Shown here: positions 1-26,717 of the stretch, one piece after another
Layout of the letters: every line of letters begins with the position of its first letter
Position numbering within the stretch: position 1 is the stretch's first letter
Source of the DNA: Bryobacterales bacterium
GTDB taxonomy: Bacteria; Acidobacteriota; Terriglobia; Bryobacterales; UBA6623
Assembly (NCBI GenBank): GCA_022823865.1
Contig: JAJEHF010000112.1
Coordinates: 1-64,000 of the forward strand
Direction: 5' to 3'
DNA length: 64,000 nucleotides
Translations under genes and position numbers: made by a program
Notes under the pieces: generated by a model
The model's input: the letters and a program-made list of their open reading frames with translations, nothing else
The model's database searches: none
Told to the model about the DNA's origin: nothing

Positions 1-1
1 G

Positions 2-3000
2 ACCCCCGGCACCAGCGGCAGCGAGCTGAGTTCGGGGGTGCTCACTTCGACAGCGGCAGAGCGGTTCTACGGGCTCTCGGGAGTCTTCACCGTTGGGGCG
101 GCGCCCGCGACGAAGCTGGCGCTGGCCTCGGCCACGGTGAACCACTCGGAGCTGGCGCTGGCCTACGGCGAGGATCTGGACCCGGACGAGGTTCCCTCGC
201 CGGGGGATTTCGCCGTCAGCGTGGACGGGGCCGCGGCGACCGTCTCGACGGTGGCGGTGAGCGGGAGGACGGTGACGCTGAGGCTGTCGAGCGCCGTGCC
301 CATCGGGGGGACGGTCACGGTGAGCTACACGGCGGGGACGACTCCTCTGCGGACGCTGCTCGGGAAGCTGGCGGCGGACTTCCGGGCCACTGCGGTGACA
401 AACGAGACGAAGCCGGTGCTGTCGGTGGGTGCTCCGAAGGTGATCGAAGGGGGTGCCGGAGCGAACCCAGTGCTGGCCTTCGAGGTCACGCTGGCGCCGG
501 CGAGCGCGCAGCAAGTGAGGGTGGATTACGCCGACTCCGCGGCGGGGACGGCGACGTCCGGGACCGACTACCAAGCGCTGACCGGCGGCACGCTGACGTT
601 CGCGCCGGCCGAGACGACCAAGACGGTCGGCGTCACGGTGATCGGGGACGTGCTGGAAGAGGGCAACGAGACCGTGGTGCTGGAGCTGAGCAACGCAGTT
701 AACGCCGGGCTGGAAGGGGGTGGCGAGACGTTGCAGGCGACAGGGACGATCATCGACGACGAGGCGCCGGTCGCCGGGGATGTGCCCGTGACCTGGGCAC
801 TTACACCGGCCAATCTTGCCCCGGGGGAGAAGTTCCGGCTGCTGTTCGTCACGTCCAGCAGGACCAATGGCAGACCGGGCCGGATCGCCACCTACGACGA
901 GTTCGTGCAGCAGGCAGCCGCAGACGGCTCCGTGGCGCTTCGACCCTTCAGCCAACACTTCCGCGTCGTTGCGAGTACGGAGACGGATCATGCCCGCGAT
1001 CACACTCTGACCCTCTTCAGCCCCTCGGATCGCGGCGTGCAGATCTACTGGTTGGGCGGGGCGAAGGTCGCGGATGATTATCGCGACTTCTACGATGGCA
1101 ACTGGTCCTCGCACGAGCCGCGCGATCCAGACGGCGAGCCGCTAGCTGCCGATATCGAGGTCTTCACCGGTTCCGAGAGCGACGGCACCAAAGCTGACGG
1201 CCTGCATCTGGGACAGAGGGACGGGGAGGTCCGGGGAGGCTCTCCTGGGAAGGCTGGCAGCGAGCTGAGCGACACAGGCCTCCTCTTGGACTCGGATTCA
1301 CCGAGCCGGCTGTACGCCATCTCGGCTATTTTCACGGTCGTGCCTGCCCCCGCCACGAAACTGGCGCTGTCCACGGCCGAGGCGAACGGGGCCGAGCTGA
1401 CGTTTTCATATGAGGCGGATCTGGATCCGACCTCTGTGCCAGGTCCGGCTGATTTCAGCGTGATGGTTGCCGGGAGCCCTGCATCCGTGGCGGAGGTCTC
1501 GATCAGCGGGCGGGCGGTGACGCTGACCCTGGCGAGTGCAGTGGGCATCGGGGATGTGGTGACGGCGAGCTACACCCCCGGGGCGAAGCCTGTTCGGACC
1601 GTGCTCGGACGACTGATCGCGGGATTCTCGGATTTCGCTGTCACCAACAACACGCAGCCAACCTTGTCGATCAACGCGCCTCGGACCGTCGAGCCCGACA
1701 CCGGAGAGATTGCTTTCCTAGATTTCGAGGTGGTGCTCAGTCCCGCAGCTGACGCCGCCGTCACTGTCGATTACGCGATCTCCGAAGCGGGGACGGCGAC
1801 TTCCGGAACCGACTACCAACCATTGACAGGGGGCACGTTGACTTTCGCGCCCGACGACACACGCCGGACCGTTCGCGTGACCGTAATCGGGGATGAGCGC
1901 GAGGAAGACGACGAAACTATCGTGCTGGAGCTGGCCAATGCTGTCAACGCCGCGCTGAGAGGGGGCGGAACAACACTGGCAGGCACGGGAACAATCATCG
2001 ACGACGAGGCACCCGCAGCCGGGGAGGTTCCCGTCACTTGGGGCCTGGCCCCTAGCGGCCTGATCCCCGGCGCCAAGTTCCGGCTTCTGCTCGTGACATC
2101 CACCGGTAGGAATGGTCGGCCAGCGGCGACCCTCCCATACGACAGGCATGTGCGCAGCGCGGCCTCGAGCGGCCGGGCGGCCTTGGAGCCCTTTGGCGCT
2201 GGCTTTCGTGCGCTTGTCAGCACGGAGACCGATGATGCCCGGGACCACACAGCGACGACCTTCTCGACGTCTGACCCGGGCGTGCCGATCTACTGGGTCG
2301 GCGGCGCGAGGGTCGCCGCAGACTACCGCGAACTCTACGGCGGCAGCTGGGACTCGAATGAGCCCCGGGACGAGAACGGGGACTTGGTTGCGGCTGATAT
2401 CAGAGTCTTTACCGGCTCCGAGAACGACGGTACGAAGGCGGCGGGCGGTCTCCATATCGGCCATCCCGATGCCGACGTGCGCTCAGGCTCTCCGGGGAAG
2501 AACGGAGCTGAAATGAGCGATGGACTTCTCAGCTCGAGGACGACGGCTCGCCTTTACGGGCTGTCTGCTGTCTTTACGTTGGTGCAGGCTCCTTCAACGA
2601 TGTTGGAACGCGTCTCGGCAGTCGTGAATTGGTCGGAGCTAACCCTCACGTACGCCTCCGACCTAGATTCGGACTACACTCCGCCACCGGCAGAGTTCAA
2701 CGTGGTGGTCGACGGCGTTGCGGCGACAGTCGTTGATGTGTCGGTTAGCGGATCGCGTTTGACATTGGTCCTCGCAGAACCGGTGCCGATCGGCGGAACT
2801 GTGACCGCGGGGTACACGGCCGGTGCCCGTCGCCTTCGTTCCGTGCTCGGGGTGTTGGTGCCGGATTTTCCACTCTCTGCCGTTCAGAACGACACGCAGG
2901 CACAGCTCTCAGTCTCAGCGCCGCGCGTGGCTGAAGGGGATGCAGGAGAGGAGCGATCCTTGGATTTCGAGGTGTCGCTGCGGCCTGCGGTCGCGTATGA

Positions 3001-6000
3001 GGTGACCGTCGACTACTCCGATGTCAGCGCGGACGAAGGCACTGCGACTTCTGGTAGCGACTACCGCGCACTGAATTCCGGAACGCTGACGTTCGCGCCC
3101 TACGATACGTCCCAAACGGTTCGCGTGACAGTGCTCGGCGACGCCGTTCCGGAACCGGACGAGACTGTCGTTCTGCGCCTGAGCGCCCCCACGAACGCCG
3201 CATTCCAATCGGGCGGCCCCACACTTGACGCGGCAGGCAAGATCGGCAACGACGATGTCCCGGTCCGAGAGGTCCTCTCCACGTGGGGCTTGGTTCCAAG
3301 CGACGTTGCCATCGGGGGCTCGTTTCGGTTGCTCTTCGTCACATCCTCCTCGACACGAGGCGTCTTCTCGCGAATCGATCGATACGACGGTCACGTGAGA
3401 GATTCGGCGTCGACCGGGAGGGCAGCAATCAGACCGTTCAGCCAACACCTTTGGGCGCTCATTAGCACGGCGGAGGTCGAGGCTCGCGAACATACAGTGA
3501 CTGGTTTCACGACAACCAGCCAGGGTGTCCCGATCTACTGGCTGAACGGGGGCAGGGTCGCGAACGACTACCGGGACTTCTATGACGGCAACTGGGCCTC
3601 GAACTCACCCGTTGACGAGCTCGGCGACGACGCTAAGACAGATTTAGGAGTCTTTACTGGGTCGGCTAGCGACGGAACTAGGGACCCAAGCGGCTTCTAT
3701 CCCGGTAGCCTACTGGCCGAAGACGTTCGCCTCGGGAAGCCACATGTTCCCGGAAGCGAGATTGCCAGCCAAGACGTCATTGAGGCAACGGGATCCGAGC
3801 CAGTATACGGCCTTTCCGGGGTATTCACCGTCGTCGCACCGACCGGGGCCGTCATTCCGCTGGTCTCAGCGACGGCGGAGGATGAGAACTTGACACTGAC
3901 CTATGGAGAGGAGCTGGATTTTGACTCGCTGCCGGCTCCCGCGGACTTCACCGTCACGGTGAGTGGTGTGCCGCGTCCTGTCACTCAAGTCACCATCACT
4001 GGTTCGAGCGTCAACCTGAAGCTTGCAAGCGAACTTGTGCTCGGAGAAGCCGTCGCAGTCAGCTATACGGCAGGGACGAATCCGCTGCGAAGTCAAACCG
4101 GAGTCCAAGCGGCCGCGCTCTCGGGATTCGTCGTGCAGAACTTGACTAAGCGGAAGCTGCTGATCGGGGCGACGGCCGCGTTCGAGGGCGAGCCCCTAGT
4201 GTTCAGCGCCACCTTGTCTCCGGCGAGCGACCAGACTGTAACGGTCCAGTACCGGACCGAGAGCGGGACCGCGACACTGGGATTGGACTTCGTTGAGACC
4301 ACGGGCACGCTGACGTTCGTGCCGGGTGAGACATCCCAGGCCTTCACGGTCACCACGATCCAAGATGACCTAGACGAGCCGAACGAGACTGTCGCCGTGG
4401 TCCTCAGCAATGCCACGAATCTCGTCTTCGCCGACGATCAGACGGAGGTCACTTTGGTCGCCACGATTCTGGATGACGACGAGACCGTACCCCTCCGTGT
4501 CCCCCCGACCTGGGAGCTAGTCCCCAGCGGATTGGCTGACGGTGATGCGTTCCGCCTGCTGTTCGTCTCAAGCGAGGCCGCGGAAGCCGTCACCGAGAGT
4601 ATCGCCCTCTACGACCGCCACGTTATCGAAGCCGCAGCCGCTGGTGACGGCGCGATTCGAGCATTCAGCCAGTTCTTCTGGGTGCTTGCTAGCGTCGCGG
4701 GCATCGACGCCCGCGACTACACGACCACGACATATACCAACGTTGATCTGGGTGTCCCGATCTACTGGCTCGGCGGGGCCAGGGTGGCAGACAACTACGA
4801 GGACTTTTACGACGGGGAGTGGGCCTCGAATTCACCCACCGACGAGTTCGGAGAGTCGGTGCCCGCCGGAGTGGAGGTATTCACCGGGTCGAACACTGAC
4901 GGCACTAAGGATTCCAGTGGCAGGTATCTCGGCACCTTGGTTCAAGGTGCGGTGACCTTGGGCAAGCCGGGCACGAAAGGACTGGAACTGAACGCAAACG
5001 AGCGGAAGCTCAAGACGTCCCAGCGACCACTATACGGGCTTTCCGGCGTGTTCATCGTCGACAAGGATGCCAGGGTGCCAGAATCCGCCACCGAAGCGAC
5101 TCTCGAGATCACACCCGCCGCCGTCGTGGAAGGCTCGGATGCCGTCTCGGTGAGCTTCACTCTGAACTTGGCTAGGCCCGCTCGGACGGACCAAGAATGG
5201 GAGATTCAGATACGAGACGAAACCGCATTCTCTCCGAATGACTTCGCAGCTACGCCGCGCCTTCAGACGGTCTCGATGGCATCCGGCGAGACCAGCGCGC
5301 ACGGTAGTTTCGAGATCTCGACGACGCGGGAACTGGACGGCATTCCGGAATGCCCGGAGTCGGTCTTGGTGCGAGCCGTGGGGACCACGGATTCCGGCCT
5401 GCGCGTTACATCGGCCTCGACCAGGCTGAGTGTCATCGACTCGGAGGCTACCGACGCTCTCTGCGGGCCGCCCGCTGACGGTGCGACCATCGTGCTCGCA
5501 CCGACCGGAGCTCGGAACCCTGAGGATTCAACGCTTGGTCCGCCAACGGAAATGCCCGACACGGGGCCGCCTGAGAGGCTGGGGACGTCTGCGGAGTTCG
5601 CCGTCTGGACCGACCGCGCCGGATACGAGCCGGGCCAGCAGATGCGGCTCTTCCGGTCCGTGGCCCCTCAGTCTGACGGCGACAGCTACACGTTCTTCTA
5701 CTACCTAGAGAATACGCGCACTGGTGCTCGGCGCTATTTCGCTCCAGGAATCCGCTCGACCGGCTTAGAGCCAACGGTTGTGGATCAGTACGGGATGGGC
5801 GAGGGCTCGTTCCGGCCCGCAGGATTCGAGCCGGCCATCAGGGATTTGATCTGGTCCGGCGTGGCACCAGGAATTGGCGCATGGCGGTTCGTGGCCGAAG
5901 TTCGCAGCGCAGACGCAACGCAGGTTGTGAAGGTCTCCCATGCCAGATTCGTTGTGTCGGCAGGGGAGCCACGGCAAATCGGCGATCCCGATGAGCCCCT

Positions 6001-9000
6001 CGTGCTCACGGCTGACCGGACATTGTACAGCGCCATCGTTTACAAGCTGCGAGGCACCGTGCGCGTCGGCCCCGGCGTGACGCTGACAGTGGAAGCGGGA
6101 ACCTTGGTCAAGGCTCTGGGGCCGGATGCCATGGTGATCGTGGAGCGGGGCGGCAGGATCGAAGTCCAAGGGACCCGTCGTGATCCCGTTGTGATGACAT
6201 GCGACGCTCCGGTCGGCCGCCGCGAGCCCGGCTGCTGGGGCGGGCTGGCAGTCTTGGGTCGTGCCCCGGTGGACCCCGGCGATGTAGTCCCCGGACAGTC
6301 GCCGACCGACGCGGGGATGCAGTACGGAGGCGACGCTCCGCATGATTCCAGCGGATCGCTGCGGTTCCTGCGCGTCGAATTTGCCGGTGGAGGCACGGAA
6401 GGCGGTTCGCCCAATCCGGCGCTCGGCTTTTATGGCGTCGGCTCTGGCACTAGGGTCGAATTCGTGCAGGCCCATGCGGGACGGGGCGACGGAATAGCGT
6501 TTCGCGGCGGGACGGCTAACTGTTTTTGGTGTGTGTCGAGCGGCTCGCTTGGGGATCTGCTGGACTGGTCGGAAGGATGGCACGGGAGTGCCCAGCACCT
6601 GTTCCTGCGCCAGGGGGACGGGGCGGGGCACGGGATCCACGGACACGGGAATGGAGGCAACGCGGAACAAGCCGGCTTGCCTGCCGTGTTTAATGCCACC
6701 CTCGTCGGGGGGGCGGATGTTCGACCGTCGGGAGCAGTCGGAGACGGGATTCGGCTCAGCGGAGGCGCTGCGCTGACGGGGGGGAACTGGGTGGTGGTCA
6801 ACTTCCGCGGTCTGGCGGTTCAGGCGGGGGAAGTGGAGGCTCAGAGGCTCGGCAACGGCGGCGAGGGTTTGGGCAACCTGATCCTGCACGGAAACGGAGG
6901 CGGCCGCTGGTTCGACCAGGTCGCGGACAGCATCCGCCCGCTCGTCGACTTCACCCCCCGGAGCCCCGAACTGATCAACGTGCGCAATGAGCCGAGTCCG
7001 GACCCTAGGCCCGCGAGGGATTCTAGGGCGCTTGACGGATTGGCTGCAGTCACGCCTCCCGCAACAGGTGGCCCTTGGGATCGCGCCCCTTACGCCGGTG
7101 CGTTCGGGTCGTGGCTCTGGACCGAGGAGTGGACATTCTTCGGACGCGAGGCCGACCTTCGATTCGTCCGGCTGCCGGTGCTCTCGGTCGAGGCCGCCTC
7201 GGCTAGAGAAGGCGATGTGATCGAGTTCGTGGTACAGATGCAACCGCAGAGCCAAGACACGGTCACCGTCCGGTACCAAACGGCGAGCGGAACAGCGACC
7301 GAAGGTGCCGATTTCCCCCATTCCTCCGGGACCCTGACCTTTCTTCCGGGCGAGACCGTCCAGACGATATCCGTCCCGATAAGCGACGATGAATTTCCCG
7401 AAGAGGTAGAGCACTTCCTGATCCGGTTCACCGAGCCAACCAACGCGGAATTGGCGGGCCGCGCTAGGGCCCTGGAGCGCCTCGGCACCATCTACGGCAA
7501 TGACATGCAGCCGCTCGAGGTGCCTCCGACATGGAGACTTGTCCCGACCGGTATCGCTGCGGGTGATTCGTTCCGCTTGCTGTTCGTCTCGTCCACCGCA
7601 AGGGACGCCTCGGCCTATGGAATCACTGCGTACGACGACCACGTGCGGACGGCCGCCGCGGCTGGCCATACCTCGATTCGGCCCTACAGCGGCCACTTTC
7701 GGGTGCTCGCAAGCACGCGGGACGTCGAGGCGCGGGTACACACCCTTTCCACGTACGATTCCGATGCAGGCCAGACCGGCGTGCCGATCTACTGGGTGGG
7801 TGGGGGCCTGGTTGCCGATGACTACCGCGACTTCTATGGCGGGAACTGGTCTTCCAATATCCCCACGGATGAGTTCGGAAGCGTGGTCGATCCCGGGATC
7901 GAGGTCTTCACTGGCTCCGCCAGCGACGGCACCCGCGATCCTGGTAGCCGGTGGCTTGGAACGCAAAGCCTTCCTGCTGTTCGGATCGGCAAGCCGGGGG
8001 AATCGGGCGACGAACTGGACGCCGGCCAAGAAAGGCTCCAAGGCTCAGAACTCCGCTTCTACGGCCTCTCAGATGTGTTCGCGGTGACGCAGGCTAGTCC
8101 GGCCCACCTGCATCCTCTTTCCGCTACCGTGGACGGCCAGCGCTTGGAACTCACCTACGAAGAATCGTTGGACACGTCGAGGCCACCGTCCACAGATCAC
8201 TTCACGGTCAAGGTCGGCGGTGTTGTGCGAACCGTCTCGGAGGTGGTCGTCGAAGGGCCAACGGTGGTTCTTCGGCTGGAGCGTCCCGTGCACGAGGACG
8301 AGTCCGTGACAGTCAGCTACCACACCCTGAGCCACCGGCCAACGCGTCTGCGGGGCGGTTCCGGGAGGCTTGTGGCGGTATTCGGGGACAGGCCGGTCTC
8401 GAACGAGACGACGCTGGTCCTGTCTGTTGCTCCGGCAGGTATCGAGGAGGGGGCTCAAGGGGAGGCGCCCACTCTCGACTTCGAGTTCTCGCTCAACGTA
8501 CCCAGCAGTTCCGTGGTCAGCGTCGATTACGTGGACACAGGCACGGGCACGGCGACGCCGAACGTAGACTACGAAGCTCGGGCCGAAGGGACTGTAATCT
8601 TCGCACCCGGCCAGGTGTCCCGGATCGTAAGCGTCAGGGTCTTGGGGGACGACATCCCCGAGCCTTCTGAGACCGTTGTGCTGCGGATAAGCGGAGTGGA
8701 GAACGCAATACTGGCAGGGGCAGTCCGAACCTTGGACATCAAGGGGACGATCCTGAATGACGATTCTCCCCGGATCCGAGTCCCTCGCACGTGGAGACTG
8801 ACTCCCCCGGGGCTAGCTGTCGGGGACTCGTTCCGACTGCTCTTCGTCTCTTCCGTCGGACGCGATGGCAGGGCCTCGGAATTCGCCGAGTACGACGGCC
8901 ATGTGAGAGCGGCAGCCGCGGGTGGTCACGGCGCCCTTCGGCCTTTCAGCGACAACTTCCAAGTCCTTGCCAGTTTCGATGGCTTGGACGCTCGCGACCA

Positions 9001-12000
9001 CACCGTGACGCGGTACAACGAGCGCGACTTGGGTCTCCCGATCTACTGGCTGGGGGGAGACAAGGTCGCGGACGATTACCGGGACTTCTATGACGGGGAT
9101 TGGGATTCGAACGACCCGAGGAATGAGTTTGGCGGTGAGGTGGGTTCGGGAGTCGAGGTCTTTACCGGGACGGCCAGCAACGGAACCGGGCATGCCGAGG
9201 GCCGCGTCCTTGGCTCTGAGGAGTTCTCCGGTGTCCTGCTCGGGCACCCAGGCCAAAGCGGTAACGAGCTGGACTCCGGCAGCATCAGGCGTGAGGGACT
9301 GGAACTGGGCCTGTACGGCCTCTCCGGGGTCTTTGTGATCGTACCACCCAGCGGACGAGTGGCGTCGCTGCGTAGTGCAACAGTGAACGGTGACGAGTTG
9401 AAGCTGGCGTATGCGGAGGCCTTGGACTCCGATGGAGTACCCGCTGCGTCGGACTTCGACGTGACAGTAGGAGGCGTGGACAGAAGCGTACTGAACGTTG
9501 CCGTTGAGGGAGACAGTGTGACGTTGCATCTGGCCGAGAGGGTGGTGATCGGCGAATCTGTCTCCGTGACATACACCCAAGGGCCGCAGCCCCTCTTCAC
9601 GGCAGTGGGCGCGGCCACGGAGCCGTTCTCGGGCCACCCAGTCACGAACGAAACGCCGTTCGAGTTGGCGGTCGGTGCTGGCGGCGTGCTCGAGGGCGGT
9701 AGGGGATCGACACGGATCCTCGTGTTTGAGGTTACGCTTCCGGTACCCGCGGACCGAGTTGTTACGGTCGACTACGCAGATTCGGAGGGGGGCACGGCGA
9801 CTTCGGGGAGCGACTACGTGCCGCCGGCGGAAGGGACGTTGGTCTTCGAGCCTGGGGAAGTTCTCAAGACGGTAGCAGTGACCGTTACTGGTGACGACTT
9901 GGAGGAGGTCTCGGAAACAGTGATCTTGCGTCTGAGCGCTGCGACGAACGTGGCCCTCCCGGGAGGCCGCGAGACCTTGGACGCCGAAGGAACGATCTTC
10001 AATGATGACGCGCAGAAGCGGGAGGTGCCAGCCAACTGGAGGCTGATTCCCGAAGGACGCTCTGTCGGCGACTCGTTTCGCCTGCTGTTCGTCTCATCGC
10101 TCAAGCGCGACAGTAGACCTCTGGGACTCGCCGAGTACGACGGCCATGTCAGGGCGGCCGCCGCTGCTGGCCATGGGGCCGTACGGCCCTTCAGCGATCA
10201 CTTCCGAGTCTTGGCGAGCTCTGACGGCGTGGACGCTCGCGACCACACCGTGACGTTGTACGACGAGATGGATTCCGGTGCCCCAATCTACTGGCTGGGC
10301 GGGGACAGGGTCGCGGATGACTACCGGGACTTCTACGACGGCAGCTGGGATTCTAACGAGCCGAAAGACGAATTCGGGGACAAGGTGGGTTCCGGAGTCG
10401 AGGTGTTCACCGGAACGGCTAGTGATGGAACTGGGCATGCCGAGGGCCGCGTCGTCGGCTCGCCGGAGTTCGCGGGTGTTCTGCTCGGGCAACCGGGCAG
10501 GAAAGGGATGGAACTGGACTCCGGTAGCATCAAGCGCGAGGGACTCGAGCTGAGCCTGTACGGGCTTTCCGGGGTCTTCGTGATAGTACCGCCTAGTGGG
10601 CATGCTGCAACGCTGAGTGCCGCGACAGTCACCAGCGACGAGTTGACGCTGGCGTACGGGGAGGCCTTGGACTCCGATGCAGTGCCCGACGCGGCGGACT
10701 TTGAAGTAACCGTGGGGGGAGTGGCTCGGAGCGTACTGGACGTGGCCGTTGCGGGGTCCAGCGTGACCTTACGGCTGGCGGAGAGGGTGGCCATCAACGA
10801 AACCGTGTCCGTGACATACATCCCGGGATTGCATCCCCTCCGCACGGCGTTGGGCACACCTGCCGACTCGTTCTCGGGCCGTCCGGTCGTAAACGAAACG
10901 CCGGTGGAATTGTTGGTCGGCTCTGGCAGCGTGTTGGAAGGCGGTAGCGGCTCGAAACGGATCTTAGCGTTCGAGATTACCCTAGCGGCACCGACCGATC
11001 AGGTCGTGTCAGTGGGGTATCGCGATTCGCAGGAGGGCACGGCGGTTGCTGGCAGCGACTACGTGCCGCTTGGGGAAGGGACGATTGTCTTCGAACCCGG
11101 AGAAGTCTCCAGAACGGTGACCGTGACAGTCCTCGGTGACGATCTGGAGGAAATCTCGGAAACAGTGATCCTACGATTTAGCGGTGCGACGAACGCGAAG
11201 TTGGCCGGCGGGGCTGAGGCCTTGGACGCCGTGGGAACGATCTTCAATGATGACGCGCGAAGGCTGAGCGTTCCCGCCAACTGGGGACTGATTCCCGAAG
11301 GACTCGGAGTCGGAGATTCGTTCCGGCTACTGTTCGTCTCCTCCACCAAGCACGATGCTAGGGCCCTGGAACTTGCCGCCTATGACAGCTATGTGAGAGC
11401 GGCTGCCGCAGGAGGCCACGAGGACGTCCAATCGCTCAACGATCACTTTCGGATCCTCGCGAGTTCCCACAGCATCGACGCTCGGGACCACATCGTGATG
11501 TTGTACGACGAGCTTGATTCCGGCCTCCCGATCTACTGGCTGGGCGGCGACAAGGTGGCGGACGACTACCGGGACTTCTACGACGGGAATTGGGATTCGA
11601 ATGATCCGACCAACGAATCCGGTGGGCGAGTGGGCCGCCGAATTGAAGTGTTCACCGGAACCGCCAGCGACGGAACCAAGCACGCCGACGGCCGTTTCTT
11701 TGGCTCGCTGGAGTTCGGCCAGGTTTCGGTTGGGCGTCCCGGCGAGAACGGCAAGGAGCTGGACTCCGGCACCAGCCGGAGGCGTGGGCTCGAGTTGAGC
11801 CTGTACGGCATTTCCGGAGTCTTCCAAATCGTTCCCATGGGCGAATCGAGGTTGGCACTCAGTTCAGCCGCCGTAGACGGGGCACGCCTGAAACTGACCT
11901 ATTTGGAGGCCTTGGATCCGGAGTATCAACCCGATCCAAGGGATTTCACGGTCATCGCAGCCGGCAGCCCCATAGCGATCTCGAAGGTGGAGGCCGGAGC

Positions 12001-15000
12001 GGCTGGAGCCATGCTGACACTCGCCAGCGAAGTTGCCGTCGGTGCCACGGTGACTGTCGGTTATGCCCCTGGGCAGGTCCCGATGCGGAGCCTGGCCGGG
12101 ATTCAAGCCTCCTCCCTAGCGGACGTGCTCGTGGAGAACCTTACGCGGTCACAGTTGTCAATCGGGGAGGCGGTAGCACGAGAAGGCGAGCCACTGGAGT
12201 TCTCCGTCAGGCTGTCCCGGGCCAGCCCCGAGCGAGTCACGGTTCGCTACGGGGCTCGAAGCGGAACGGCGACGGAAACCGCTGATTATGTCGCTGTGTT
12301 GGGGCTGCTCAGCTTCTTTCCTGGAGAGACCGCCAAGACCCTCTTGATCACGACCTTGCACGACGATCAAAGCGAAGCTGTCGAGTCGGTATCGATGGTC
12401 CTGAGCGATCCGACAAACGCTTGGTTTGTCGACGGGCAGACCGAAGCTGTGGGAATCGGTCGGATCCTTGACGCCGATACAGTCGCTCCTGTGCCGGTCC
12501 CGCCTACCTGGGACGCCGTTCCCGATGGCGTGAGCGACGGCGGTTCCTTCCGTCTATTGTTCGTCACGTCCCAGACCGTGGATGCCTCGTCAGACGATAT
12601 CGCACGGTATGACAGGCACGTGATGGAGTCTGCCTCTTCGAGCGAATCTAGGATCGCGCCGTTTGCAACCTATGTCCGGGCACTCGCCAGCACACCCGGG
12701 GTGGATGCCCGCGACCATACAGCAACGCTCGCAACGGAAGCCGATCAAGATGTCTCTGTCCATTGGCTGGGTGGCGAGAGAGTCGCGGACCACTACGGCG
12801 ACCTGTATGACGGCAACTGGGATTCGAACAAGCCAACGGACGAGTCCGGGAATCCAGTCAGTGGAGACGCTAGGGTCTTCACGGGATCGACCCGCAGCGG
12901 AACGAAGGATTCTTCCGGTGCTCACCTCGGATCCCAGCAGGCCTTTGGGATTCTTGTAGGCAGGCCTGCGGAGTCTGGGCGCGAGCTCGACTCCGGGGAG
13001 GCGAGCCAGCCTCTGCCGGGCTTGCCTCTGTACGGGCTGACAGGAGTGTTCCGGGTAGATGCACGAGCCAGCCTGCCAGCCACGGCGGCTGGTGTGCGCC
13101 TTGCCCTAGCACCGTCGCGCGTCTCCAAGGGAACTGCATCGATAGAGGTCGAGGCAACGGTGACTCTCGCCGGGCCGGCGGCCGAGGAGACCGAGTGGGC
13201 ACTGCGTGTGCGAGGGGCGCCGTCTGTCATTGCCAGCGATGTCTCTGCAACGCCCTCGGTCTTGAACGTGACCGTCCCGGCCGGGCGAACCACGGGCAAG
13301 GGTACTTTCACGCTCTCATTGGCTCGCTTAACAGAGACTGTGACGCAATGCCACGAGACCCTCATCGTCGAGGCTGTTCCGAAGCGTCGGCCACAGTTCG
13401 CCGCAGCCACCCCGACGGCAGCTCTCCACCTAGCCGACTTGGTTGCCGAAAGCGCGACTTGCGCAGGACTTGCCGGCATCACGTCGGGCAAGGCCGTGTA
13501 TGGGACCGATTCCGACGGCTGGCGCACCCGGGCTGCAGCGAAGCCACGACCCTCGTACCCCGGGCCACCGGGAACTTCTGCTCGGCTCGACCTCTCGACG
13601 GACCTGACCGCTTACGCGCACGGGCAGCCTCTTCGGGTGCTGCGAGCACTCGGTCCGGAGGGCGATGACCGTTCGTACACATTCTTCTATTACTTGGAGG
13701 AGATTCGTACAGGCCGACGGTATTACTTTTCCCCGGAGACCGGATCTAATGCGCTCTCGGAACGCGTCGTCGATGCGTTCGGAATGGAGGACGGGGCGTT
13801 CGCGGCCAAGCGCATTCCGATCATCGAGAGGGAGTTGGCGTGGGAGGGAACAGTTCCCGAGGCTGGTTCTTGGCAGTTCGTCGCGGAAGTGCGCAGTGCC
13901 GATGCGGCACGGGTCGTCAAAACGGCACATGCAAAGTTCCTGGTTTCAGCACGGCAGCCGGTGCACGTTAGTGAGCAAGATCGACCCGCCGACATTGTTG
14001 CCGATCGCGTCTGGACGAGTGAGACGGTCCACAAGCTCCTGGGACCGGTGCGGGTGCGGGCAGGGGCAACGCTGGTCATCGAGGCTGGCACCTTGGTCCA
14101 GGCTCTAGGGTCCGAGGCTAGGATAGTCGTTGAGCCGGGCGGCAGGATCGAAGTACGCGGTACTCGCTCCGAACCCGTTGTGATGACATGTGACGCGCCT
14201 GTCGGTTCGCGTGCGGCGGGCTGCTGGGGTGGTCTGACTGTGATGGGCCGAGCGCTGGAAAGGCGCAGAGTGGGTGGCGAAGCTCGATTCGAGGCCGCCG
14301 TTCAGAGGGAACTTGGCGGCGACGTTATCGGGGACTCGAGCGGTACTCTGCGCTACTTGCGGGTCGAGTTCGCAGGTGGAGGCTCCCCGCCGAGCCCGGC
14401 GATTTTTTTGCACGGGGTCGGGCAAGGGACAACGATCGAGTTCGTTCAATCTCACGAGAGCTTGGGGAGCGGAATCGAGTTGCGGGGCGGAGATGTCCGC
14501 ATCGACTACTGCGTCTCGAGCGGAGCGCGCGGAAACTCCTTCGCGTGGTCGGAGGGATGGCGCGGAGCGGTGGGGCACCTGTTCGTTCGGCAGGGGCCAC
14601 AAGGAGGACACGGCATCTCCGCCGTCGGTAGCGGTGGAGATACGGTTGCGGCAGGCTGGCCGGTCATCCAGGGCGCGACATTGGTGGGCGGCGGACCACG
14701 CGAATTCTCGGGTGTGGCCAGCGACGGCATACGGCTGCGAAAAGGAGCTCGGCTCAAGGCGGAGAGCCTGATTGTGACCGGCTTCGCGGGTAGCGCGATC
14801 AGCGCTGGCGGCGCTGAGGGAGGCGAGTTTTTGGCCGGGCGCAGCGGCGTTAGGAACGCGATCATTCACAGCAACGGCGGGCTCTACGGAGTGGCCCAGG
14901 TCGCGGCGAGCGTGGCTCCGTACGTTGACTTCTTGGACATGGACCCAAGACTGCGTAACGTCCGCTACGAGCGGAACCCTGACCCTCGGCCACGGATTGA

Positions 15001-15442
15001 CTCTGGCGCGATGCGCCGAAACGCACTCGAAGGGGCTCCGGTCGCCGATGGCATCGGCGAGAATCCGGCGTACACCGGGGCTTTCGGTGCGTGGGACTGG
15101 ACCGAGGAATGGACCGTCTTCGGGCGCGAATCGGATAGTCTGGTGCAATTCGAATCTATGGCCGCCCGCCAACGAGCGCAGTACCTGGATCGGCTTCGGG
15201 AAGGGATCAACGGTACGGCTCGACCAGCAGCGTTCCTTGCTGAGCGCGACCGGACGGGCTTGGCCGCCAGCACTTTGTTTGTGCTGCCATTTTTCGCCGC
15301 AACTTCCTCTCCGGAGGCTAATCCGCCAGAGCGTGTCTCGGTTGCGCTATCGCTGGAGCTTGTTCAGGATCGGACATCGCGACCCTGTCTGGTTCGACCC
15401 CACAGCGAACTGAGTTCAGTCTGTGGCCTAGGAGGCGAGTAG
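2..15442 (+). CDS. Giant modular secreted/surface protein (Calx-beta, SwmB-like and unnamed repeat domains, two parallel beta-helix inserts), 5'-partial
   Basis: Frame is open from nt 2 (TPGTSGSELSSGV...) through the listed GTG at 38, so the ORF start is not the gene start; stop TAG 15440-15442. Nine 'VPxTWxLxPxGLxxGDSFRLLFV...IYWLGGxKVADDYRDFYDGNWDSN...EVFTGTASDGT' units. Calx-beta signature 'GTATSGTDYxxLxGTLTFAPGETxxTVxVTVxGDxxxExxETVxLxLSxxxNA...GTIxxDD'. Confidence 0.95.
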   Translation, partial: TPGTSGSELSSGVLTSTAAERFYGLSGVFTVGAAPATKLALASATVNHSELALAYGEDLDPDEVPSPGDFAVSVDGAAATVSTVAVSGRTVTLRLSSAVPIGGTVTVSYTAGTTPLRTLLGKLAADFRATAVTNETKPVLSVGAPKVIEGGAGANPVLAFEVTLAPASAQQVRVDYADSAAGTATSGTDYQALTGGTLTFAPAETTKTVGVTVIGDVLEEGNETVVLELSNAVNAGLEGGGETLQATGTIIDDEAPVAGDVPVTWALTPANLAPGEKFRLLFVTSSRTNGRPGRIATYDEFVQQAAADGSVALRPFSQHFRVVASTETDHARDHTLTLFSPSDRGVQIYWLGGAKVADDYRDFYDGNWSSHEPRDPDGEPLAADIEVFTGSESDGTKADGLHLGQRDGEVRGGSPGKAGSELSDTGLLLDSDSPSRLYAISAIFTVVPAPATKLALSTAEANGAELTFSYEADLDPTSVPGPADFSVMVAGSPASVAEVSISGRAVTLTLASAVGIGDVVTASYTPGAKPVRTVLGRLIAGFSDFAVTNNTQPTLSINAPRTVEPDTGEIAFLDFEVVLSPAADAAVTVDYAISEAGTATSGTDYQPLTGGTLTFAPDDTRRTVRVTVIGDEREEDDETIVLELANAVNAALRGGGTTLAGTGTIIDDEAPAAGEVPVTWGLAPSGLIPGAKFRLLLVTSTGRNGRPAATLPYDRHVRSAASSGRAALEPFGAGFRALVSTETDDARDHTATTFSTSDPGVPIYWVGGARVAADYRELYGGSWDSNEPRDENGDLVAADIRVFTGSENDGTKAAGGLHIGHPDADVRSGSPGKNGAEMSDGLLSSRTTARLYGLSAVFTLVQAPSTMLERVSAVVNWSELTLTYASDLDSDYTPPPAEFNVVVDGVAATVVDVSVSGSRLTLVLAEPVPIGGTVTAGYTAGARRLRSVLGVLVPDFPLSAVQNDTQAQLSVSAPRVAEGDAGEERSLDFEVSLRPAVAYEVTVDYSDVSADEGTATSGSDYRALNSGTLTFAPYDTSQTVRVTVLGDAVPEPDETVVLRLSAPTNAAFQSGGPTLDAAGKIGNDDVPVREVLSTWGLVPSDVAIGGSFRLLFVTSSSTRGVFSRIDRYDGHVRDSASTGRAAIRPFSQHLWALISTAEVEAREHTVTGFTTTSQGVPIYWLNGGRVANDYRDFYDGNWASNSPVDELGDDAKTDLGVFTGSASDGTRDPSGFYPGSLLAEDVRLGKPHVPGSEIASQDVIEATGSEPVYGLSGVFTVVAPTGAVIPLVSATAEDENLTLTYGEELDFDSLPAPADFTVTVSGVPRPVTQVTITGSSVNLKLASELVLGEAVAVSYTAGTNPLRSQTGVQAAALSGFVVQNLTKRKLLIGATAAFEGEPLVFSATLSPASDQTVTVQYRTESGTATLGLDFVETTGTLTFVPGETSQAFTVTTIQDDLDEPNETVAVVLSNATNLVFADDQTEVTLVATILDDDETVPLRVPPTWELVPSGLADGDAFRLLFVSSEAAEAVTESIALYDRHVIEAAAAGDGAIRAFSQFFWVLASVAGIDARDYTTTTYTNVDLGVPIYWLGGARVADNYEDFYDGEWASNSPTDEFGESVPAGVEVFTGSNTDGTKDSSGRYLGTLVQGAVTLGKPGTKGLELNANERKLKTSQRPLYGLSGVFIVDKDARVPESATEATLEITPAAVVEGSDAVSVSFTLNLARPARTDQEWEIQIRDETAFSPNDFAATPRLQTVSMASGETSAHGSFEISTTRELDGIPECPESVLVRAVGTTDSGLRVTSASTRLSVIDSEATDALCGPPADGATIVLAPTGARNPEDSTLGPPTEMPDTGPPERLGTSAEFAVWTDRAGYEPGQQMRLFRSVAPQSDGDSYTFFYYLENTRTGARRYFAPGIRSTGLEPTVVDQYGMGEGSFRPAGFEPAIRDLIWSGVAPGIGAWRFVAEVRSADATQVVKVSHARFVVSAGEPRQIGDPDEPLVLTADRTLYSAIVYKLRGTVRVGPGVTLTVEAGTLVKALGPDAMVIVERGGRIEVQGTRRDPVVMTCDAPVGRREPGCWGGLAVLGRAPVDPGDVVPGQSPTDAGMQYGGDAPHDSSGSLRFLRVEFAGGGTEGGSPNPALGFYGVGSGTRVEFVQAHAGRGDGIAFRGGTANCFWCVSSGSLGDLLDWSEGWHGSAQHLFLRQGDGAGHGIHGHGNGGNAEQAGLPAVFNATLVGGADVRPSGAVGDGIRLSGGAALTGGNWVVVNFRGLAVQAGEVEAQRLGNGGEGLGNLILHGNGGGRWFDQVADSIRPLVDFTPRSPELINVRNEPSPDPRPARDSRALDGLAAVTPPATGGPWDRAPYAGAFGSWLWTEEWTFFGREADLRFVRLPVLSVEAASAREGDVIEFVVQMQPQSQDTVTVRYQTASGTATEGADFPHSSGTLTFLPGETVQTISVPISDDEFPEEVEHFLIRFTEPTNAELAGRARALERLGTIYGNDMQPLEVPPTWRLVPTGIAAGDSFRLLFVSSTARDASAYGITAYDDHVRTAAAAGHTSIRPYSGHFRVLASTRDVEARVHTLSTYDSDAGQTGVPIYWVGGGLVADDYRDFYGGNWSSNIPTDEFGSVVDPGIEVFTGSASDGTRDPGSRWLGTQSLPAVRIGKPGESGDELDAGQERLQGSELRFYGLSDVFAVTQASPAHLHPLSATVDGQRLELTYEESLDTSRPPSTDHFTVKVGGVVRTVSEVVVEGPTVVLRLERPVHEDESVTVSYHTLSHRPTRLRGGSGRLVAVFGDRPVSNETTLVLSVAPAGIEEGAQGEAPTLDFEFSLNVPSSSVVSVDYVDTGTGTATPNVDYEARAEGTVIFAPGQVSRIVSVRVLGDDIPEPSETVVLRISGVENAILAGAVRTLDIKGTILNDDSPRIRVPRTWRLTPPGLAVGDSFRLLFVSSVGRDGRASEFAEYDGHVRAAAAGGHGALRPFSDNFQVLASFDGLDARDHTVTRYNERDLGLPIYWLGGDKVADDYRDFYDGDWDSNDPRNEFGGEVGSGVEVFTGTASNGTGHAEGRVLGSEEFSGVLLGHPGQSGNELDSGSIRREGLELGLYGLSGVFVIVPPSGRVASLRSATVNGDELKLAYAEALDSDGVPAASDFDVTVGGVDRSVLNVAVEGDSVTLHLAERVVIGESVSVTYTQGPQPLFTAVGAATEPFSGHPVTNETPFELAVGAGGVLEGGRGSTRILVFEVTLPVPADRVVTVDYADSEGGTATSGSDYVPPAEGTLVFEPGEVLKTVAVTVTGDDLEEVSETVILRLSAATNVALPGGRETLDAEGTIFNDDAQKREVPANWRLIPEGRSVGDSFRLLFVSSLKRDSRPLGLAEYDGHVRAAAAAGHGAVRPFSDHFRVLASSDGVDARDHTVTLYDEMDSGAPIYWLGGDRVADDYRDFYDGSWDSNEPKDEFGDKVGSGVEVFTGTASDGTGHAEGRVVGSPEFAGVLLGQPGRKGMELDSGSIKREGLELSLYGLSGVFVIVPPSGHAATLSAATVTSDELTLAYGEALDSDAVPDAADFEVTVGGVARSVLDVAVAGSSVTLRLAERVAINETVSVTYIPGLHPLRTALGTPADSFSGRPVVNETPVELLVGSGSVLEGGSGSKRILAFEITLAAPTDQVVSVGYRDSQEGTAVAGSDYVPLGEGTIVFEPGEVSRTVTVTVLGDDLEEISETVILRFSGATNAKLAGGAEALDAVGTIFNDDARRLSVPANWGLIPEGLGVGDSFRLLFVSSTKHDARALELAAYDSYVRAAAAGGHEDVQSLNDHFRILASSHSIDARDHIVMLYDELDSGLPIYWLGGDKVADDYRDFYDGNWDSNDPTNESGGRVGRRIEVFTGTASDGTKHADGRFFGSLEFGQVSVGRPGENGKELDSGTSRRRGLELSLYGISGVFQIVPMGESRLALSSAAVDGARLKLTYLEALDPEYQPDPRDFTVIAAGSPIAISKVEAGAAGAMLTLASEVAVGATVTVGYAPGQVPMRSLAGIQASSLADVLVENLTRSQLSIGEAVAREGEPLEFSVRLSRASPERVTVRYGARSGTATETADYVAVLGLLSFFPGETAKTLLITTLHDDQSEAVESVSMVLSDPTNAWFVDGQTEAVGIGRILDADTVAPVPVPPTWDAVPDGVSDGGSFRLLFVTSQTVDASSDDIARYDRHVMESASSSESRIAPFATYVRALASTPGVDARDHTATLATEADQDVSVHWLGGERVADHYGDLYDGNWDSNKPTDESGNPVSGDARVFTGSTRSGTKDSSGAHLGSQQAFGILVGRPAESGRELDSGEASQPLPGLPLYGLTGVFRVDARASLPATAAGVRLALAPSRVSKGTASIEVEATVTLAGPAAEETEWALRVRGAPSVIASDVSATPSVLNVTVPAGRTTGKGTFTLSLARLTETVTQCHETLIVEAVPKRRPQFAAATPTAALHLADLVAESATCAGLAGITSGKAVYGTDSDGWRTRAAAKPRPSYPGPPGTSARLDLSTDLTAYAHGQPLRVLRALGPEGDDRSYTFFYYLEEIRTGRRYYFSPETGSNALSERVVDAFGMEDGAFAAKRIPIIERELAWEGTVPEAGSWQFVAEVRSADAARVVKTAHAKFLVSARQPVHVSEQDRPADIVADRVWTSETVHKLLGPVRVRAGATLVIEAGTLVQALGSEARIVVEPGGRIEVRGTRSEPVVMTCDAPVGSRAAGCWGGLTVMGRALERRRVGGEARFEAAVQRELGGDVIGDSSGTLRYLRVEFAGGGSPPSPAIFLHGVGQGTTIEFVQSHESLGSGIELRGGDVRIDYCVSSGARGNSFAWSEGWRGAVGHLFVRQGPQGGHGISAVGSGGDTVAAGWPVIQGATLVGGGPREFSGVASDGIRLRKGARLKAESLIVTGFAGSAISAGGAEGGEFLAGRSGVRNAIIHSNGGLYGVAQVAASVAPYVDFLDMDPRLRNVRYERNPDPRPRIDSGAMRRNALEGAPVADGIGENPAYTGAFGAWDWTEEWTVFGRESDSLVQFESMAARQRAQYLDRLREGINGTARPAAFLAERDRTGLAASTLFVLPFFAATSSPEANPPERVSVALSLELVQDRTSRPCLVRPHSELSSVCGLGGE
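782..5060 (+). repeat. Module array A: four ~1245-bp tandem modules
   Basis: VPxTW motif starts at about 782, 2028, 3272 and 4497; the window starts inside a preceding module. Confidence 0.9.
5560..7165 (+). repeat. Parallel beta-helix insert, copy A (second-order repeat)
   Basis: Protein 'YTFFYYLENTRTGARRYF...VGPGVTLTVEAGTLVKALG...GGRIEVQGTRRDPVVMTCDAPVG...CWGGLAVLGRAP...WTEEWTFFGRE'; near-copy at 13557-15150. Confidence 0.9.
7517..13060 (+). repeat. Module array B: five ~1245-bp tandem modules
   Basis: VPxTW/VPANW motif starts at about 7517, 8777, 10021, 11267 and 12494; modules 6-8 are the most alike at nucleotide level. Confidence 0.9.
13557..15150 (+). repeat. Parallel beta-helix insert, copy B
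   Basis: Protein 'YTFFYYLEEIRTGRRYYF...VRAGATLVIEAGTLVQALG...GGRIEVRGTRSEPVVMTCDAPVG...CWGGLTVMG...WTEEWTVFGRE'; 'cccgttgtgatgacatg' occurs at 6185 and 14174 (offset 7989 bp). Confidence 0.9.
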
Positions 15443-15908
15443 CATGTCTGCAGGCCGGGAAGCCGATCCTAGGCTGGCAATCAACGTGTGTGCCGACAGA
15501 CAGGCGAGCCAGCTGGGGATGGAAATGTACCAGCCGCTGCCTGGCTGGCTGAAGCTGGCGCGTTATTGCTTCGGTGCGAGACTCAAGGGGGATTGGAAGG
15601 CCGGAGGCGACGGCCAAGAGAGCCGACAGGGCAGGCGGCACATAAATCCTCCCAGCTCGTTCTCCTCGTGGCGCTCTCGCTACGCGTTCCCGCGACGGAA
15701 GTGGTCTGCCGCGCCGCAGCGAGCTTCGCAGCATGTACGAGTACGGTGGGCCGGTGAGAGTGGTCCCGAACTGCCTGTCCGCGGGAACGGTTCAGCAGGG
15801 CCGTTTGGACTGGTCGATGAATGCAAGCCGCGCCGAGTCGAAGACCGAGCCAGAGATTCCAAGATTTCCGGCCGCTATGCGCGGGTGGCCCGGAAATGGG
15901 TGCTTCGT

Positions 15909-18900
15909 ATGCTGACGGCTCTGTTATGTGCTGTGGTCACGACGGCCAGTCCCGTCCACGACGAGCGCGATGCCTTCCTGCCCGCGTGTTTTGCCGAAGG
16001 GGGAAACCCGCTGGGAACGCTTGACGCAGGCACCATGGCGGCGCTGGGAACCGCTCCAAATAACGCCCCCGGTTTAGAGGAAACGCTCGTCTTTCGAGTC
16101 AAGAATGCATGCAGTTGGAGGGGCCCGTCGCCGTTCATGCAATCATCGGCGACGACATCAACAGGTGTGTCCGGGGGCAGTGGCCACACCACGGACGGCC
16201 CCCAGATTGGGCATCACAGTGTTGCGACGAGTCAGACACTGGAGGGCGGTCGGATTCCTGCCTTGCCGGGACTCCCCGACAGTAGTCTCGGCCGCATTGC
16301 GCCGAGCGTCTCCGGTACGCAAGCGATGGTTTCGCGGCAAGCCGCGGCCCCGGCCACCTTGCCGGACCACGGAATTCGGCTCATCCCGACCGATCCAGTC
16401 GGATCCAAGACCCGGATCGACCGGATCGGTAACGGTCGGCGCGAGTTGGCTCTAGAAGGTTTGCGGCCCGAAACGCCAAACGGAGCCAGAATCGGCTACG
16501 ACCACATTGTTCCTCGACTCGCCGCCGGTGGGATCGGACAGCTATCTGGCGACTCAGGAGCCGACCAAGGCGGAAGCACCGGTTCGCAGGGTGTGCCCGC
16601 TGGCGAGGAAGCTCCGGCAGGGACGCAGTCTGTGCAGGTCGTTGATCTCGGCACGTCTGGGTCCATCACACTCACGCTGGAAGGTGGCAGGTGGATGAGT
16701 CACGAGGGGCCGGTAGCAGACGGGTCTTCGATAGCTGCCGCGAACGGAAGTTCGTATACGTTGAGGTACAGGTATGGCCACTGGTCCGCAGAGTTCGTTC
16801 CAGAAGTGAGGAGCATCGTTGGGACAGGACTTGTCGCGACTTGGTTAGAAGATCGTAGCGGATATCGTGTTGGAACGACGGCCCATCTGTCGAAGGAGGG
16901 CCGGGGTGAGGTCTCGGTGGATGGTGCCATGTACCGGGTCTGGGAAGAGGATGGCTCACTTTGGGGTGTGCGCTTCGATGCGCCGCCACATGGCTCGGAA
17001 CCCATCGATGGCCACTACAGCATCGGCCTCCGTGATCAACATATTGCGACGCTCGTTGAGGACGACAAGGAGACCGCCGCCAACGAGGAGGGGACTCGGA
17101 TCCAGGTTGGGGGCGGCGACTTCTCGGTGGACCAACTGCTCGGGGAGGGCTCGGCCGCGTCTGTTGGGAATAGCATCGTGCCCGACGTCCTTGCCGAAAT
17201 CCTAGATCTGAGAAACACTGCGCACGCTCTGTTGGTTAGTTTCGGCGACGACCCGAGCTCCAGTGCTTTCTTGGAATCCGAACTGGATCGGCTCTGGGAG
17301 GAGGTCATAGTCAACATCAAGCGGATATTCCAAGGTGCGGTGCGGGAGTGGCAGCCACTGATTGCTGCGAAAAGGGCGATAGAACGAGAAGAAGATGTCG
17401 TCGAGCAATTCGACGCTGTGGTCACTGCGCTGTCCAGCCTTGAGGCGTTCCAAGCAGCCACTAGCGAGGACGGAGAGGGCATATTCAGAGAGGCCAAGAA
17501 GGGGGAGATCGGCGCCGCTAACGTTTTCGCCGCTCGGCTTTCCAGATCAGAAGCGATCCTCAAGGCGACCGGAGATACGCGTTACGGAGCGGTAAAGACC
17601 GAGGCGCGGAGGCAGCGGAGAGCCGAGGGTGAATTTTCCCTGCGCGGGCCCGGCGCAGGTGCCGGAGTATTCGCATATTCGACGATCCCGGACACGGAGC
17701 GGGCTTCTCGCATAAGTCTCACAGGGGACTCGACCTATCTGGGAGAGACAACAGCGGTCGATGGCGAAGGGAAGTTCTGGACCGCGGATCTTGAGTTGGA
17801 AGTTCGATTCGGGAACGAGACTGTGCGCGGACTGATTACCGGATTGTCGGACGAGAGAGGCAGACCGTGGGTCTACCAGCGGGGGGAGGTCGATGCCATC
17901 TTCCTCCCCGAAGCGAAGCTCGAATTCGACGCAGACTGGGTCGCTCGCCAGAGCCGATCAAATTCGGCTCTGATCCAATACGAAGATAGGTTTGTACGAA
18001 CACGTTCTGTGTCGCGATCGTCGTTCGAGGGGCACTTGCTTGGGATTGGGCCACAGGCAGGCCACCAGGCAGTGGGAGCTTGGTCAATCGGAGTCCCTCA
18101 GGATGGAACTGAATACCTCGCCGGGGCCTTCGGTGCCGTTTTGGTGCGGGATCCGAAGGAAGACGGTCAATCCGGTCCGAGCATCCCGGAGACTGCGACG
18201 CCAGAGACTACGGTCCTGCCGGCAGGGTCCGACATCGAGGATGGTGTCCTGACGCTGACAGGAACGCTGTATGGTCCGAATCCCGAGACTACGCTGACAC
18301 GAGCGGATTGGGATGACGAAATCTTGCTCTTGGACGAGGGGCGGAAGATTGCGGACGTATACGAGTTGCCGCTGGAAGAGGCTCTTGCGAGGAATGGAGC
18401 GGAGCGGGCCTATCTTGGCAGGAACCTTATCCACATGGCGCTCGCAGAGATTACCGATCTTCGGACGGATTTGGCGGCCGTGGTTGGTCTGGGAGATGAA
18501 GGGCCGGCCCTGCTCCGGGAGCGTTCGAGAATTTGGGGCGAGGTCAACGATAGCGTTCAGGCCAGAATCTTCGGGACTGGCGACAAAGCAGTGTCAGAGA
18601 GGGATTTCGCGAATGACGAAGCAGTCCCGGCAGGCGATCCAAGGAAATGGTCGAGCGGGTACCCGACGGCACCCGACGGTAGTCCTGAGGATGCGGCCGC
18701 GCTGAGGGCGATTGACGCGGTCCTGTCGGCACTGCGGGCACCCCGTGCTCTAGCAGAGGCAGTCGCCAAGGGCGAACGCGGCGTATTCACTCGGAGTGAC
18801 GGTTCGCCTTTTCGCCCTCTCGCTGCTGGACAAATCGACGAGATCTGGGATCGGGTAGATGGACGGATTCAGCTCTGGACAGAGTCGACTGACTATACAC

Positions 18901-21406: not shown

Positions 21407-21525
21407 CTCATCAGCCTGTCGCAGAAGTCTTGGCCGAGCAGATCGCCCCGATTCCGCCGCATCCCAAGCACGGAAGGGCTGTTCGACCGGCTATTGATGG
21501 CGAGTCCAAAACGTTGAATGGCCTC

Positions 21526-21995
21526 TCATAGGCGTTCGATGCCTTCCACGGACGACAAGCTCACGATCGACTTTTCGAGTGGGCTGTCAGCTGCGACGAG
21601 TATCGGGGTGTGCGGGCGAGTTGGAATAGGCCGAAGCGCGTAGAACGAGGATTCGAGTATGGTACCGTGACTTGTCGAGAGGTGGAGGGCACTTGCCGCA
21701 ACGACCAGATCGGTTAGCCGGTACGGTGCGCCCGCGGATCTAGCGCGGTAAGCCAAGTCAGCGGCTGCCTCCGATACAGCTTCATCGATGGGGAGATCCG
21801 CGATAAACTTCGGGTTCTGCACAACCGCTCGTTACTTCTGCCGGCGCGCATCACTCCATGGTTCAAGTTCAACCGGCGCGCCAACATGCTCAGTGGGTAG
21901 GCGCGGCCTTGACGCGAGAACGCACAGCCGGGCCCGTACTTCGTCCAAGTCCAAGCACGTCTATCCACGAGTATCGACAAGTAGCACGAGATCAT
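21526..21995 (-). pseudogene. Decayed VapC-like PIN-domain toxin gene
   Basis: Two overlapping minus-strand frames: '[36 protein letters not shown]' (N-terminal PIN-like) and '[51 protein letters not shown]' (C-terminal PIN-like 'DLxVAxAlxHgxtl'). Confidence 0.45.
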
Positions 21996-22163
21996 CCTCT
22001 TCTACGAAGGGTGAGCTGTTCTGCGGAGAAATTCAAGAGAGCACATCTGTCAGTGCCGAGTTTCGGACTTCCGCTATCTCACGTTTTCAAGTCGGTAGCT
22101 GCGACGCCTCAGTGCAGATGCGAGAAATTTTGCAAAGTCATTGGGGTCTGTTACAATTTATTC

Positions 22164-24479: not shown

Positions 24480-24568
24480 TCGGCGGAGTTCGACTGGCTC
24501 GCCGGCGGAACAGAGCGACGGGTCGAAGCGAACGGCAGCAGAGATTGCACCGTAAAGGAGAACAGCCT

Positions 24569-26167: not shown

Positions 26168-26717
26168 CGGATAGATGGCATCAGGGTTGAGACTGACTCC
26201 ACAGCGGTCCAAGCTGTCATCTTGGGCACCACTCGTTGCGCAGCATTCCGGCACTGACCGGATTGCGGGTGCTGCTCCTATGGAGCGCGCGTCGGATACC
26301 TCGCGCCGACTGGCGGATAGTCACCAGAGGTTGACTTGCCTATCTATACCCGGTTCCTTGAAGTGGAGCCAGAGGCATGCTATCGCGGGTTCGTACCGAC
26401 ATCTCTTGATGTGGCAGTCGGCGCTCGGAAACGAGTCAGAGGCCGCGGCCACGTCGAGGCTCCCGCTGATTTCGAAAGCGACAGGAGAGATACGCGGCGC
26501 GCCGGGAGTCGCGACCGGCAAGAGCTTTGGCTGGTCGGACAGCATCGCATGCGTCCGCATCCTTCTGGCTGCGAGATCGAAGGCACAAGGAGGAAGTCAG
26601 TTCGTGCTGCACAGAGCTGATTGGGGAGTACGCTAGCGTGGTCTTCCGCAGCAGCACGACAGGCTTGCAAGTGATGGGCGGATCTTAGTGACAATTGAAA
26701 TGAGGAGGTAACGGGAA

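Follow-up and report, generated by a model that had tools for sequence, protein, structure and literature searches.

How does a bacterial gene come to carry nine long repeats at perfectly regular offsets, what is the repeated domain, and what might so large a protein do? These questions are raised by the left end of the window, as we call the whole 64,000-nucleotide stretch analysed here, where a single open frame (2..15442, + strand) encodes 5146 amino acids (539 kDa) with zero internal stops. Contig C161 of this genome (6.07 Mb, 231 contigs) ends at base 1 of the window and the frame is thus truncated at its 5' end, leaving visible the 3' two-thirds or less of the full giant gene. The first-pass annotation had recognised nine units with a VPxTW motif and two inserts, had read their constant offset of about 8 kb as the copying of a whole block, and had predicted one more module upstream of the contig edge.

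Nine units and two inserts were indeed found in the one frame, within a few bases of the positions proposed. All features given here lie on the + strand. Scored against a profile made from the nine, each VPxTW unit reached an E-value of 3e-81 or better; the domains, of 187 aa, occupy 782..1339, 2027..2578, 3272..3832, 4499..5059, 7520..8086, 8780..9340, 10025..10585, 11270..11830 and 12497..13057. A full repeat unit consists of one SWM_repeat (in module 1 at 110..340), a Calx-beta domain and the VPxTW domain. The SWM_repeat was matched by the curated models PF13753 of Pfam (4+2+2 stretches along the frame) and TIGR02059 of NCBIfam, and is lacking from unit 5, just past the first insert. Calx-beta (PF03160) gave nine matches above the curated cut-off, one per module, at 479..760, 1715..2002, 2957..3202, 4220..4414, 7211..7447, 8510..8695, 9725..10006, 10970..11185 and 12203..12418. 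Modules 4 and 9 are atypical, with a linker of 222 aa and an F.D.QTE motif (FADDQTE and FVDGQTE, respectively), as against 228-231 aa in the other modules, and each is directly followed by an insert of about 690 aa, here called the end cassette (A, 5060..7156, conserved core 5600-7156; B, 13058..15139, conserved core 13589-15139). The successive spacings of the VPxTW units are 1245, 1245, 1227, 3021, 1260, 1245, 1245 and 1227 bp, so that the pairs 1/6, 2/7, 3/8 and 4/9 are all offset by exactly 7998 bp; the end cassettes are offset by 7989 bp (YTFFYYLE at 5687/13676, PVVMTCDAPVG at 6185/14174). The first-pass offsets, 7997 and 7989, were accurate to within a base.

A repeat array of this kind, in a fragmented genome of 231 contigs and with contig ends falling inside the array both here and in a relative, might be an assembly artefact or a pseudogene, but we regard this as very improbable, and it is excluded for the visible part of the gene. 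The longest exact repeat within the array is 26 bp and its 4+5 module order is matched one-to-one in a second, independent genome of the genus; the array is therefore not an assembly collapse. Against decay, 5146 codons are open and the giant gene is under purifying selection, with a dN/dS of 0.24 in both orthologue pairs.

A search of the same genome for the missing 5' part found the VPxTW domain only on C161 and on contig C187, which carries a paralogue, colinear with the window gene (63% identity over 3570 aa) and followed immediately 3', as in the window, by a companion ORF. At the end of C187 (L005, bases 1-60) the letters are G and C only, which has the look of an artefact of assembly or sequencing. 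Both genes have orthologues in another genome of the genus, G001 (JAJDTX, Bryobacterales bacterium isolate jk18x1bzbins.53), in which contig C186 corresponds to the window (94% nucleotide identity over 28 kb) and contig C85 to C187 (96%). On C85 the giant gene is complete (427-20910): it begins with a signal-peptide-like sequence and has 14 VPxTW domains, 11 modules standing before the first cassette and 3 between the cassettes; it is followed by the companion and then by the start of a second giant gene (its own signal peptide, 3.7 modules, then the contig end). The last visible module of this second gene is 78% identical in nucleotides to the window, whereas the window and C187 share only 70%; the second gene is thus probably the start of the window gene's orthologue, and the likeness would place the window gene and its paralogue in tandem. 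A third genome of the genus, G009, has a short form with at least 3 VPxTW domains, one cassette and the companion, and a run of N inside. Judged by eye in the complete N-termini, a signal peptide stands immediately before the first VPxTW domain in four genes (both genes of C85, that of G009 and that of C60); the window gene itself is seen without its N-terminus. Homopolymers lie just 5' of the two C85 starts, 16 G before gene 1 (L047:404-420) and 8 C before gene 2 (L048, about 5365-5375), and are possibly sequencing artefacts or slippage switches.

At its left edge the frame encodes the C-terminal tail of one more VPxTW domain, truncated where the contig stops (2..94, translation TPGTSGSELSSGVLTSTAAERFYGLSGVFTV). 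Of this domain 154 residues are seen in C187 and the whole in C85, where the upstream module lies 1245 bp before the module-1 homologue, that is at about -463 in window coordinates. The module predicted near -460 is thus confirmed by its tail and by homology, rather than by direct extension of the contig. Its supposed rank, as the fifth module of a block A, did not survive: with 11 modules before the first cassette in C85, a five-module block A is ruled out. When window positions 292-28307 were compared with C186, and likewise C187 with C85, identity in steps of 500 bp formed a mosaic ranging from 81.6 to 99.6%; within the giant gene, dS in steps of 500 codons ranged from 0.01 to 0.32. This suggests recombination tracts between the two species or lineages.

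Trees were built of the VPxTW domains alone and of whole modules. Modules 1, 2, 3, 4 and 5 each pair with the same-position module of the paralogous gene, and these positions therefore predate the gene duplication. A single clade unites modules 6, 7 and 8 (support 97/98 in the whole-module tree, 100/99 in the domain tree), and the two modules that the paralogue has there group with it. As they form a clade of their own, and as two of them are missing from the paralogue, the trees place their amplification as a local event, later than the duplication of the gene itself. Module 9 is the sister of module 4 (98/97); the end cassettes fall into an A clade and a B clade that each span both genes (100/99), so the variant module and its cassette were copied before the gene duplication. 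The first-pass annotation was right about the nested repeats, and right that the atypical last module and the end cassette had been duplicated, but it extended this to the whole block, and modules 1-3 pair with the paralogue and not with 6-8.

Could an 8.0 kb unit of four modules plus a cassette nevertheless have been copied, gene conversion among modules 6-8 having later erased the pairing? Four pairs at an exact 7998-bp offset, the true duplicates 4/9 and A/B, and the patchy identity to the orthologue, a sign of recombination in the gene, would all fit such a history. The trees do not: the closest kin of modules 6-8 are the two B modules of the paralogue, not any A module (98/97), and forcing modules 1 and 6 to be sisters costs 99 log units and is rejected (AU test, p = 2.7e-5). 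Nor is a five-module block seen when the genes split, since against the three modules and the variant of the window the paralogue can set no more than two modules. Most copies are 41-61% identical in amino acids (41-78% for the 415-aa modules overall), and the supposed pairs 1/6, 2/7, 3/8 and 4/9 (49, 50, 41 and 50%) are matched by random pairs, which are no lower. Trees, AU test and pair identities together rule out a simple whole-block duplication; gene conversion could have masked an older copy of the block, but nothing requires it, and we strongly disfavour this account. The exact offset is accounted for by equal 1245-bp spacing and equal module number. The history was instead stepwise: a short ancestor with one cassette, as in G009, first had its end piece (last module type plus cassette) copied once; the giant gene and its companion were then copied in tandem, and modules were won and lost afterwards, one at a time or a few together.

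The end cassette has its own history. The first-pass annotation had called it a beta-helix; by sequence it matches nothing in Pfam, NCBIfam or the PDB. Its core also occurs as a free-standing, secreted-looking protein of about 570-630 aa in 26 of 41 genomes across the order, mostly in one copy per genome, and fused to SWM repeats in other large frames of the window genome (3656, 1330 and 1009 aa). The longest of these (contig C68, L086:1942-12909) has at least 7 SWM repeats and the same cassette, without Calx-beta or VPxTW. As the core stands free across the order, the giant gene arose when arrays of modules were added ahead of a household domain that was already old. Past cassette B, the C-terminal tails of the two paralogues show no conservation.

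The giant gene is followed 3' by a companion ORF of 1369 aa (15444..19553; core conserved over 16635-19550), as it also is in C187, C85, C186 and G009; the ORF matches no Pfam or NCBIfam model. Its family, with many paralogues, is present in 11 of 11 genomes of the genus and in 0 of the 30 others searched. The core has a dN/dS of 0.15-0.35; the first 400 codons or so (window 15444-16600) have 0.7-0.9 and no homology in the paralogue, so that the true start is probably further in. A stretch of about 60 aa from the N-terminal part of the companion recurs as repeats in other proteins, and a cluster of the family lies on contig C24 of G009 (about 28-89 kb). Downstream (19850-28148) are genes for a pectate-lyase-like/DUF4955 protein, a GH95 glycosidase, a GMC oxidoreductase and a sulfatase, possibly a set for sulfated or fucosylated glycans. 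A functional tie between these neighbours and the giant gene is unsupported, because G009 has other neighbours there (by eye, a DUF1549-like protein). Further along (36523-40140) is a 1205-aa protein in which a family 5 solute-binding domain is joined to Cache sensor domains.

What, then, is the repeated domain? No Pfam or NCBIfam model matches the VPxTW domains of the window, neither PF06482 (endostatin) nor PF07588 (DUF1554) giving a match at E<=10, and neither family has a match in this genome. A search of PDB sequences with the VPxTW profile returned only a chance match to nitrogenase. When domain 7 was modelled by AlphaFold with 46 diverse sequences, the prediction reached a pLDDT of 95 and a pTM of 0.91, as against a pLDDT of only 37 with the nine near relatives alone. 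Comparison of this predicted fold with the PDB (Foldseek) gave five matches at E<=1e-3, all of them endostatin (TM 0.62-0.70, best E 3e-5, probability 1.00), at about 14% sequence identity. As a shared fold alone can be convergent, common descent was checked by profiles and intermediates. The profile of 46 VPxTW domains matched that of nine DUF1554-type proteins of the phylum (probability 97.1, P 6.7e-11; for an unrelated control profile, 0.3 and 0.19), and the profile of those nine proteins in turn found endostatin in the PDB (E 3e-14). One protein (G331:C19:57.2-57.6 kb) was matched independently by PF07588, PF06482 and the VPxTW profile. No viral relative was found, by sequence or by fold.

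The domain thus lies outside PF06482 and PF07588 as these are curated and, as we conclude with very high confidence from the profiles and the predicted fold, is a third branch of the endostatin superfamily beside DUF1554 and endostatin. What is new here is that an unlabelled repeat domain is tied to this superfamily. With endostatin, the C-terminal domain of collagens XV and XVIII, VPxTW shares the fold, as predicted, and, by way of DUF1554, a distant homology; unlike it, VPxTW is bacterial, tandem, acidic and cysteine-free, with no collagen attached. Endostatin has conserved disulphides and a basic, heparin-binding surface. None of the VPxTW domains in the window contains a cysteine, so the conserved disulphides are absent, and all are acidic (pI 4.4-5.8, a statement on net charge only), which makes heparin binding of the endostatin type unlikely. 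Within the order, related endostatin-like domains are also found one at a time, in proteins without an array. Small single-domain relatives of VPxTW from other families of the order (L026, L027) have weak PEP-CTERM-like ends.

Closest in kind are the Len proteins of Leptospira (LenA-F, DUF1554/endostatin-like), likewise bacterial members of the endostatin superfamily, which lie on the surface, have expanded by gene and motif duplication, and of which single endostatin-like members bind laminin and fibronectin (PMC2063517). Each Len chain has one or two motifs, whereas here there are nine or more per chain (14 in the complete relative), with Calx-beta and SWM repeats between them; VPxTW also differs in being without cysteine and beyond the reach of the Pfam models. 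In length and layout, other giants are comparable. The Giant1-5 proteins of Apilactobacillus kunkeei, an animal symbiont, are extracellular proteins of 3,000-8,000 aa encoded by consecutive genes and shaped by duplication and short recombination tracts; they are Gram-positive proteins with beta-solenoid heads and other domains, and the abstract on them reports no endostatin-like, Calx-beta or SWM repeats (PMC12863079). Copy number of surface repeats likewise varies by module gain and loss in the periscope proteins (PMC8201768), but there the domains are small and near-identical and the hosts are Gram-positive cocci, whereas the window modules are diverged and 415 aa long. RTX-type giant adhesins are also very long secreted chains, of Ca2+-bound repeats with ligand-binding heads; the 1.5-MDa adhesin of Marinomonas, named in PMC8092209, is an example. 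In the window, the Pfam scan identified neither an RTX motif nor a type I secretion signal.

By analogy with the Len adhesins we propose, with moderate confidence, that the giant protein of this Bryobacterales (Acidobacteriota) bacterium is secreted and serves as an adhesive fibre with many binding sites. In other proteins, Calx-beta domains bind Ca2+. The protein would leave the cell and form a long filament, in which Ca2+-stiffened Calx-beta domains would present many endostatin-like heads in a row; as in the Len adhesins, the array of heads might bind matrix proteins or glycans multivalently, and changes in copy number would tune the length and avidity of the fibre. No surface anchor was recognised, the Pfam scan of the last part of the protein being blank. 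A less probable, but substantial, alternative is a structural filament of the cell coat or biofilm with no host ligand, in which the endostatin-like domains are spacers and length is the function. The domains are acidic, cysteine-free and fairly uniform, long bacterial proteins often contain Calx-beta and SWM repeats, and the single-domain relatives in non-array proteins also fit such a role; however, diversity among the copies under purifying selection suits several ligands better, and the bacterial endostatin-like proteins that have been assayed are adhesins (PMC2063517). One might also imagine, as an improbable third reading, that the array imitates the endostatin of a host collagen of the XV/XVIII type and blocks or dampens recognition by the host instead of fastening the cell to it. 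Its homology to endostatin would suit such mimicry, and sponge symbionts are considered to escape uptake with the help of eukaryotic-like proteins (PMC9531527), but its surface charge is unlike that of endostatin. Recent capture from a host is not indicated, as the domain is bacterial, occurs in several phyla and is also found in single-domain proteins.

Returning to the adhesive fibre, where would it act? The VPxTW domain was found in 3 of the 11 genomes of the genus, which thus does not need it, and in 4 of the 396 genomes of the phylum. Its nearest relatives in named genomes come from bins of Chloroflexi, Acidimicrobiia, Pseudomonadales and Prochlorococcaceae, and more distant ones from Verrucomicrobiales and Akkermansiaceae; those in other phyla lie in large frames of 1640 to 7664 aa, in one case with cadherin and fn3 domains alongside. 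We take the SB06xx and APA bins to be sponge-derived as well. G001, one of the jk18 bins, fits a survey of Ircinia sponges (PRJNA768976; PMC9531527), a link drawn from isolate names; the Ircinia placement concerns this relative only, the window genome being sister to a sponge symbiont. Calx-beta domains are reported to be enriched in the Ircinia metagenomes (PMC9531527). In a sponge, the ligand of the fibre would be the mesohyl matrix or glycans. A wider and less probable reading is that sponge symbionts of several unrelated phyla (Acidobacteriota, Chloroflexota, Actinomycetota, Pseudomonadota and Cyanobacteriota) share an undescribed endostatin-superfamily domain in giant secreted proteins which may bind or mimic the host matrix, a symbiosis adhesin either convergent or exchanged.

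For the evolution of such genes, a history at four levels (module, end cassette, gene and gene pair) means that a perfect repeat offset can arise without block duplication. For the symbiosis, a standing question is how bacteria come to live uneaten in the sponge matrix, and eukaryotic-like repeat proteins are the usual suspects. The VPxTW domain connects endostatin, a matrix domain of animal collagens, with bacterial adhesins whose binding to laminin and fibronectin has been measured, and as a cysteine-free domain of only 187 aa it is now available for direct binding assays.
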